Origin: Isosphaera sp.
GTDB lineage: Bacteria; Planctomycetota; Phycisphaerae; Phycisphaerales; UBA1924
Reading direction: 5' to 3'
Assembly (NCBI GenBank): GCA_013822085.1
Contig: PNJV01000004.1
Location: 33,987-97,986 of the forward strand
Length of the DNA stretch: 64,000 bases
This document shows positions 8,747 to 14,521 of the stretch, piece by piece. How positions within the stretch are numbered: position 1 is the stretch's first letter; every line of letters begins with the position of its first letter. The translations under genes and the position numbers were made by a program. A model generated the notes under the pieces. It searched no databases. It was given only the letters and a program-made list of their open reading frames with translations, and had not been told where the DNA came from.

Positions 8747-8860
8747 GATCCGACTCCTGTGCCCACCACCGACCGTGCCACCCACCACCTACCACCCACC
8801 ACCCGCCATCCACCACACCACCAGCGCCCGCAACCTTTGGTCACAGCGAGACCTGTCTGG

Positions 8861-12509: not shown

Positions 12510-13205
12510 TCAGGCCTCCGTCCCCGCGGCCGCCGGCGCCGCGCCCAGGGGGTTGATCTTGGCGTCCTTGCCCGTCTGCGAGCTGGGGCCGGCAAGCCAC
12601 GACTCCAGCTCGCCCCGGTCGATCACCAGGTACCGGTGGTTGAGCAGGTCGAAGGCGTTGAGCGAGTCGGGCTTGGTCAGCGTGACGCCCTCGACGTTGC
12701 GCGCCGCAAGGCGCAGGTTCGTCTGCTCCACGGGCGCGGCCACGAGCGTCTTGGTCTCGGCACGCACGGCCCGGAGCAGCGCGACCAGGTCGCGCGTCTT
12801 GGGCTGGCCCAGCTCCAGGCGGTCGATGACGCGCACCTCGTTGTCGATCAGCTTGGCAAGGAGCGCGTTGCGGTTGGCCTTGCGCCGCATCTTCTTGGGC
12901 ATGTCCTTGCGGTAGTCCTCGCGGACGCGCTTCTTGCTGTGGCCGTGACCGCCGCCCTTCATCAGGTTGACCTTGCGGTCGCCGTGACGGGCGTTGCCGG
13001 TGCCCTTCTGCTTGTAGAGCTTCTTGGTCGAGCCCTCGACCTGGGCCCGGTTGCGGGTCCGGGCCGAGCCCTGACGCAGGTTGGCGTGGTAGCGCACGTA
13101 CGCCTGCTTGAGCAGCGCGTAGTTGAGCTCGCCGCCGAGCGTCGCTTCGTTGATGTCCAGGGTCCCGACCTGCGAGCCCTGGGTGTTATACACGGGGACC
13201 TGCAT
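12510..13205 (-). CDS. rplD: 50S ribosomal protein L4
   Basis: MQVPVYNTQGSQVGTLDINEATLGGELN...STKKLYKQKGTGNARHGDRK. Confidence 0.97.
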   Translation of the reverse strand: MQVPVYNTQGSQVGTLDINEATLGGELNYALLKQAYVRYHANLRQGSARTRNRAQVEGSTKKLYKQKGTGNARHGDRKVNLMKGGGHGHSKKRVREDYRKDMPKKMRRKANRNALLAKLIDNEVRVIDRLELGQPKTRDLVALLRAVRAETKTLVAAPVEQTNLRLAARNVEGVTLTKPDSLNAFDLLNHRYLVIDRGELESWLAGPSSQTGKDAKINPLGAAPAAAGTEA

Positions 13206-13258
13206 GCGTCACCTCGCGTCTGCGCCTCACGGGGGCCCTGGGGGCACCCGCACGTTGT

Positions 13259-13466
13259 GCCGCGACGCTGATGACGTCGCGGCTCACTCGCTCTGCCTAT
13301 CCGCCGACCCCCGTCACAGATGGGGGCCGAGGGAATCGACTCGGCACGCTCCGGCCATCGCTGCTGGGCGATGACCGGGATCTTCTTGTCGTGCCCGGCG
13401 GTTGTGTCCGGCAGCCCTGGCTGCCTCGCACCCTGCCGAGCCCGTGGGCCTCTCATCAGGGAGGCC
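13259..13466 (-). ncRNA. Candidate structured 5' leader RNA upstream of rplD (several hairpins, two with complementary loops)
   Basis: Perfect inverted repeats at 13259-13283, 13356-13373, 13410-13425 and 13447-13466; loops 13268-13274 (CTGATGA) and 13453-13459 (TCATCAG) are exact reverse complements. Confidence 0.55.
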
Positions 13467-13509
13467 TCCGGCGTTCCTTTCGCCCGGCACCCTTGCGAGC
13501 ACCGGACAC

Positions 13510-13549
13510 CATCCACCCATCCACCCATCCACCCATCCACCCATCCACC
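13510..13549. repeat. Octanucleotide tandem repeat CATCCACC x5 in the rplC-rplD spacer
   Basis: Read directly; followed by a further partial unit to 13557. Confidence 0.97.
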
Positions 13550-13672
13550 ATCCACCCGCCACCTATCCCTCACCCACCAACCCATCCACTTACGCCCCAC
13601 CGGCCACCCGCACGTTTCCCTCACCGATGATCAACCCGTCACGACCCCCGTGCCACTGAGCCAACGTGTCAC

Positions 13673-14362
13673 TCAGCCAGCCTTGGCAGCGACCTTCTTG
13701 GCCTTGGGCTTGTAGAGCCGCACCGACGGGCGGATCTCGACGGTGCCGCGCGCCGGCCCGGGGACGGGACCCTTGACCAGGATCAGCCCCTTCTCGGCGT
13801 CGATGCGCACCACGTCCAGGCTGCGCACGGTCACGCGCTCGTTGCCCATGTGCCCGGCCATGCGCTTGCCCTTCTTGAGGCCGCCGCCAAAGCCGCGGTT
13901 GGACGCCAGCGAGCCGATCGACCCCGGCGAGCGGTGCTTGCGCTCGGTGCCGTGGCTGGCAAAGAGGCCCTTGAAGTTGTGCCGCTTCATGGTGCCCTGG
14001 AAGCCCTTGCCCTTGCTCGTGCCGATCACGTCCACAAAGAGCACGCCCTCGAGGTCCTTGACGGTCAGCACCTGGCCGAGCGAGAACTTGGCCACGTCGG
14101 CGGCCACGACACGAAACTCGCGGTGGTGACGCTTGGGCGTGGTGCCGGCCTTGGCGTCGTGCGCCATCACCGGGATCGTCGACCGCCGCGGCTTGACGTC
14201 GCCAAAGCCGATCTGCACCGCGGTGTAGCCGTCCTTGTCGGCGGTCCGCACCTGCGTGACCACGCACGGCCCGGCCTGGATCACGGTCACCGGCAGGCTC
14301 ACACCCTCCGCGTTGTACACGCGGGTCATGCCCAGCTTGGTCCCGAGGAGAGTCGTTGCCAT
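13673..14362 (-). CDS. rplC: 50S ribosomal protein L3
   Basis: MATTLLGTKLGMTRVYNAEGVSLPVTVIQAGPCVVTQVRT. Confidence 0.97.
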   Translation of the reverse strand: MATTLLGTKLGMTRVYNAEGVSLPVTVIQAGPCVVTQVRTADKDGYTAVQIGFGDVKPRRSTIPVMAHDAKAGTTPKRHHREFRVVAADVAKFSLGQVLTVKDLEGVLFVDVIGTSKGKGFQGTMKRHNFKGLFASHGTERKHRSPGSIGSLASNRGFGGGLKKGKRMAGHMGNERVTVRSLDVVRIDAEKGLILVKGPVPGPARGTVEIRPSVRLYKPKAKKVAAKAG

Positions 14363-14521
14363 AGGTCACCTGCCCGATGCCGCCCGCACGCCCACGCTTA
14401 CACCCTCGCCCCCAGCCATCACCCGTCACACCAACCCACCCCCGCCCGTCACGCCCCGACCGCACCAAACACACGGGGCCGACGCGAGAGAGTCCCGCAC
14501 CGGCCCCACTCGCACGCCCCG

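Follow-up and report, generated by a model that had tools for sequence, protein, structure and literature searches.

Ribosomal protein L4 autoregulates the S10 operon of E. coli through the leader of rpsJ, acting on transcription, by NusA-dependent termination, as well as on translation (PMC10931766). The repressor site of S7 in the str operon is intercistronic, between rpsL and rpsG, and lies directly before the repressor's own gene (PMC10931766). For multi-gene operons the ligand of a leader is often not the product of the gene immediately downstream, and for one Alphaproteobacteria leader in mid-operon position the proposed ligand is L2 (PMC7247131). Both this L2 r-leader and an Archaeoglobi L4 r-leader are predictions from the same gene cluster as that considered here (Eckert and Weinberg 2020).

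The element described below is, like the E. coli L4 leader, a structured RNA of the S10 operon, and repression by an excess of L4 is proposed for it too. Whereas the E. coli site is the 5′ UTR of rpsJ, however, the Phycisphaerales element is found between rplC and rplD, and whereas the E. coli leader has an attenuator, no terminator-like site was found on the minus strand of the spacer (13206-13672); no Rfam family matches the element. The S7 operator resembles it in being intercistronic, inside a ribosomal operon and directly upstream of the gene of the presumed repressor, but concerns another protein and another operon; the likeness considered here is one of position. The Archaeoglobi L4 and Alphaproteobacteria L2 r-leaders come from other lineages (PMC7247131 Table 1), and comparison of their structures, made via Rfam only, gave no match.

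Gene setting of the rplC-rplD spacer

The window, the whole stretch of 64,000 nucleotides that was analysed, has a spacer of 467 nt between rplC and rplD, in agreement with the preliminary description of this DNA.

13673-14362, minus strand: rplC, the gene 5′ of the spacer
12510-13205, minus strand: rplD (ribosomal protein L4), the gene directly 3′ of the element, from its open reading frame and relatives
13203-13205, minus strand: start codon of rplD

Relatives were fetched using the L4 protein. In the family of the window genome the rplC-rplD spacers range from 192 to 475 nt, and share a set of blocks in unchanged order, namely GUCCGGAAGGUC, GAAACCGCCGGRCG..GACAAG, GCCGAGUCGAUUCCG, CGGAUAGGCGA and, ahead of the start codon, AGGCGUC..CGAGG. 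A reduced version of this set is kept in other families of the Phycisphaerales. At loci of the class outside the order the spacers are short and without the blocks, those read reaching 123 nt at most.

Several other features were seen in this part of the operon. Directly 3′ of rpsJ, at 14473-14509 on the minus strand, is a terminator-like hairpin of 17 pairs followed by GTGTTTGG, and a similar hairpin with a T-rich tail is often present 3′ of rpsJ in relatives; rpsJ and rplC may therefore at times be transcribed separately. A GGATGGGT-like tandem repeat at 13509-13589 (10 copies of an 8-nt unit) occupies part of the rplC-proximal half of the rplC-rplD spacer, G-rich on the transcribed strand and not seen in the same spacer of relatives; a CCACCCA array at 8778-8823 resembles it. 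A second conserved motif, GCUUCCUCUGCC ... GGCAYGAAGC, is found upstream of rplC in the rpsJ-rplC spacer of about 13 of 20 family members (L234, L239-L241, L243-L250 and L253). It has no Rfam match and was not seen in the window genome.

Fold of the conserved core

Within the spacer is a conserved structured RNA of about 240 nt, encoded on the minus strand at 13203-13444 of the window. Its fold consists, in order, of P1/P2, a variable P3, an invariant CCGAGUC...GGC stem that carries P4, and the hairpin P5.

13447-13466, minus strand: first hairpin of the preliminary description, 5′ of the conserved core and unconserved
13203-13444, minus strand: conserved core, P1 through the rplD start codon, from the 32-member alignment A1
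13436-13441, minus strand: 5′ strand of P1, GCUCGG, pairing with 13393-13398, with 6 of 6 pairs covarying in alignments A2 and A3
13429-13433, minus strand: GG and GUG, the 5′ side of the P1/P2 internal-loop stem, with partners CC at 13400-13401 and CAC at 13404-13406
13410-13425, minus strand: tip hairpin of P2, GGCAGC-CAGG-GCUGCC, conserved in place and varying in sequence and length
13393-13406, minus strand: CAC-AA-CC-G-CCGGGC, the 3′ strands of P2 and P1 (consensus GAAACCGCCGGRC)
13385-13390, minus strand: conserved single-stranded linker GACAAG (consensus GACAAG), from A1
13356-13373, minus strand: hairpin P3, variable among relatives and absent or reduced in several
13332-13345, minus strand: block C, GCCGAGUCGAUUCC, in which GCC is the 5′ strand of P6, GUC pairs with block D and UCC opens P4
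13300-13334, minus strand: stem-loop P4, whose base and distal stem covary in A3
13291-13302, minus strand: block D, GGAUAGGCAGAG (consensus GGAUAGGCGA)
13259-13283, minus strand: hairpin P5, between block D and the ribosome-binding region
13224-13227, minus strand: block E, AGGC, the 3′ strand of P6, directly upstream of the Shine-Dalgarno sequence and invariant in A1
13212-13215, minus strand: GAGG, the likely Shine-Dalgarno sequence of rplD, just 5′ of the start codon

The GCCGAGU of block C is invariant in A1 and A2, and the GUC/GGC stem shows one compensatory change, in L029. Pairing of GCC rather than GUC with block D was rejected, as the double change in L029 keeps GUC/GGC and breaks GCC/GGC. 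A hairpin at the site of P5 is predicted in nearly all of 42 relatives, with a mean folding z of just -0.9.

Two departures from the common form were observed. In the spacer of L012 (genome G003) P1 and GAAACCGCCGGACG are kept and the CCGAGUC/AUAGGC (C/D) part is missing; this is possibly a degenerate copy. In a sub-lineage made up of L046, L207, L210, L211 and L214-L216, CCGAGUC is replaced by CCAAGUC, and a similar GAGGCGA occurs in both block D and the Shine-Dalgarno region, which might permit an alternative pairing.

Covariation and folding

The existence of a conserved RNA structure is strongly supported by covariation. Eighteen model pairs, from P1/P2, the GUC/GGC stem and the base of P4, were scored on A2, a structure-blind MAFFT alignment of 27 sequences: 94.8% of the cells are paired and 13 of the 18 pairs show double changes, a level reached in none of 500 shuffles, and sliding the pairing partners destroys the signal. 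RNAalifold run on the larger A1 recovered the same P1/P2 and stem. For 81 model-aligned sequences (A3), in an alignment that leans towards the model, 95.7% of the cells are paired and 15 of the 18 pairs have double changes; the double-change cells number 223, where shuffles lead one to expect 64. In an all-pairs G-test with APC on this same alignment the eight column pairs that covary most are all model pairs. The top covarying pairs of A3 include columns 15-69, 16-68 and 17-67 from the P1/P2 internal-loop stem, while covariation of P4 is seen at columns 173-312, 174-310 and 176-308 for its base and at 185-255 and 187-253 for the distal stem. P1, P4 and P5 also emerged when the window core and several compact relatives were each folded singly, with no alignment.

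The object that is conserved differs from the set of hairpins in the preliminary description. All five of those hairpins exist in the window, as do the two complementary 7-mers in their loops (CTGATGA at 13453-13459 and TCATCAG at 13268-13274), but the set misses the conserved P1, the base of P4 and the outer helix considered below. Three of the hairpins have a place in the fold, those at 13410-13425 and 13356-13373 as the variable tip of P2 and the variable P3, and that at 13259-13283 as P5, for which relatives have an equivalent. The CCGAG/CTCGG hairpin at 13327-13344, on the other hand, conflicts with the conserved fold, in which GUC (13338-13340) pairs with GGC (13295-13297), and UCC with GGA. 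The proposed 7-bp kissing interaction between the hairpins at 13447-13466 and 13259-13283 found no counterpart: although a 7-nt loop-loop match arises in just 0.45% of 2000 Markov shuffles of the spacer, and is thus unusual for a single sequence, none of 37 relatives has a match of 7 or even 6 nt under the same rule. Since all 37 lack it and the first of its two hairpins falls outside the core, on the 5′ side, the kissing loop is regarded as peculiar to the window genome. A hammerhead-like CUGAUGAG in that first hairpin was likewise set aside, as it is not conserved.

The outer helix and the rplD start site

A further helix links the core to the start region of rplD, with NCC, immediately before GAGUC, pairing with GGN′. 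In the family of the window genome the partner strand is the AGGC block, which precedes the GAGG Shine-Dalgarno sequence by roughly 8-15 nt; in other families it is, in most sequences, the rplD Shine-Dalgarno sequence itself. The minimum free energy fold of L037 has ACC paired with an AGGU Shine-Dalgarno sequence. N and N′ are G and C inside the window genome's family and mostly A and U outside it. Across 120 sequences N and N′ form a Watson-Crick pair in 91 (61 G-C, 29 A-U and one U-A) and a G-U pair in 14, and are unpaired in 15, so that 105 of 120 are paired against a mean of 89 and a maximum of 97 in shuffles. Three of the 15 unpaired cases (L040, L200 and L203) can pair once a single inserted base is tolerated, and in the CCAAGUC-type sub-lineage N/N′ is an A-C mismatch. 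The outer helix is thus supported but not proven, because the signal comes mostly from one clade-level switch from G-C to A-U, with few independent events. To that limited degree, the model suggests that the helix would close a three-way junction around the C/D-P4 stem and P5, and that it would cover the ribosome-binding site or lie at its edge.

Distribution

A covariance model, R1, was built from A2, and a model R2 was used for searches across the order and the class, membership of which was taken from kinship labels. The window copy, itself a training sequence, is the sole match in G000 (E=2.3e-11 genome-wide), the window genome, whose assembly is incomplete and in many contigs. R1 also matches non-training members in other families, such as L037 with E=1.1e-11, and in whole-genome searches of the family 132 of 163 genomes were matched. 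With R2, matches were obtained in 118 of 251 genomes of the order, the divergent families f5 and f6 falling mostly below the strict filter, and, among 198 genomes of the class searched, in none outside the Phycisphaerales. The lack of a match in some genomes of the order is partly due to the filters and to incomplete genomes; several spacers from unmatched genomes, read directly, contain the blocks.

Every matched genome has one match, save one whose second match is weak. At all 40 loci inspected within the order, from genome-wide model searches, the element sits between rplC and rplD. In these searches and loci it was found only upstream of rplD and never upstream of a metabolic gene. Weak R1 matches outside the order (L078 and L079) have neither rplC nor rplD nearby and were judged false.

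Comparison with Rfam families and 23S rRNA

Searched with Rfam 15, the whole window gave one tRNA only, with nothing credible in the spacer, where no family came at or near its gathering score, and nothing relevant in 18 related loci. Table 1 and the main text of Eckert and Weinberg 2020 (PMC7247131) contain no leader from Planctomycetes and no bacterial one directly upstream of rplD, and the main text of the 104-motif paper refers to Planctomycetes once, for the Rhodopirellula-1 motif, with rplD and the S10 operon unmentioned. On this evidence, and within that scope of the literature, the element represents an undescribed RNA family.

By eye the blocks were likened successively to H21-H24, to the GAGUC region of domain II and to H18-H20 of 23S rRNA. 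Mimicry of 23S rRNA by the blocks was not adopted, as their joint scores against nine 23S rRNAs of the family equal those of a Markov null, and R1 found no site in 23S rRNA above noise. The 10-nt core of block C, GAGUCGAUUC, ranks between first and fourth of about 2730 positions at H18/H19 (GAGUARRYUC) in eight of the nine 23S rRNAs, with longer blocks ranking lower; for the window genome's own 23S rRNA the comparison is CGAGUAGAUUCC against CGAGUCGAUUCC. This resemblance to the L4 site, weak and short of significance, is not claimed here, because the block was picked post hoc and, by estimate, one of four top positions would land in the 75-nt L4 region by chance with a probability of about 0.1.

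Proposed mechanism and alternatives

A ribosomal-protein leader is the reading suggested by the position of the element, its single copy per genome, its restriction to rplD and its contact with the start region. The preliminary suggestion of a structured regulatory RNA upstream of rplD is consistent with the covariation, the single site across the order and the pairing at the rplD ribosome-binding region, while L4 as its ligand, also suggested there, is argued by analogy. It would seem probable that the element is a leader specific to the Phycisphaerales, by which L4 represses rplD and the downstream genes through an occluded ribosome-binding site. Free ribosomal protein, most likely L4, when in excess over rRNA, would bind the fold; the bound protein would stabilise it and block ribosome entry at rplD, and translational coupling may then lower the production of the downstream ribosomal proteins. 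L4 is favoured as the presumed ligand because it autoregulates the S10 operon in E. coli and because S7 provides an intercistronic precedent. A fuller version can be offered tentatively, in which an L4-binding autoregulatory RNA evolved independently, unrelated in fold to the S10 leader of E. coli, with an outer helix of the three-way junction that captures the rplD Shine-Dalgarno sequence, and a partial imitation of H18/H19 of 23S rRNA.

Another product of the operon (L3, L23, L2, S19, L22, S3 or others), or a complex, might be the ligand of such a leader. This rival is to be taken seriously, since the gene next to a leader predicts its ligand poorly, and L2 is the ligand proposed for a mid-operon leader elsewhere (PMC7247131); L22, L24 and L3 are, moreover, early assembly proteins (PMC10931766), and no resemblance of the element to the L4 site of 23S rRNA reached significance. 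With L4 autoregulating the operon in E. coli and the element placed directly on the ribosome-binding site of rplD, however, we consider a different ligand unlikely. A role in mRNA processing or stability, for instance as an RNase cleavage site that sets the expression of rplC against that of rplD with no protein ligand, would fit a long intercistronic structure, and the terminator-like hairpin after rpsJ, in the neighbouring spacer, hints at separate units; yet the invariant unpaired blocks (CCGAGU, GAAACC and AUAGGCGA) and the pairing to the Shine-Dalgarno sequence surpass what a cleavage site needs and make this improbable.

Less probable still is a small-molecule riboswitch or a transcription attenuator: the compact conserved fold, with what could be an expression platform at the ribosome-binding site, has the look of one, but the element, at the loci found, accompanies rplD and no metabolic gene, and the minus strand of the spacer lacks both a terminator-like site and an Rfam match. 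That the RNA should function through the kissing loop between 13447-13466 and 13259-13283 is hardly credible, for its exact complementarity, rare as it is in shuffles, is shared by none of the 37 relatives and involves a hairpin outside the conserved core.

Implications for the S10 operon of Phycisphaerales

To our knowledge, little is known of how the S10 operon is regulated beyond a few model lineages. The element adds a well-supported candidate from a poorly studied group, with an unusual place in the middle of the operon and a putative switch at the rplD start site. As a defined RNA family it could enter Rfam, and it is a likely case of ribosomal-protein control having been invented independently.
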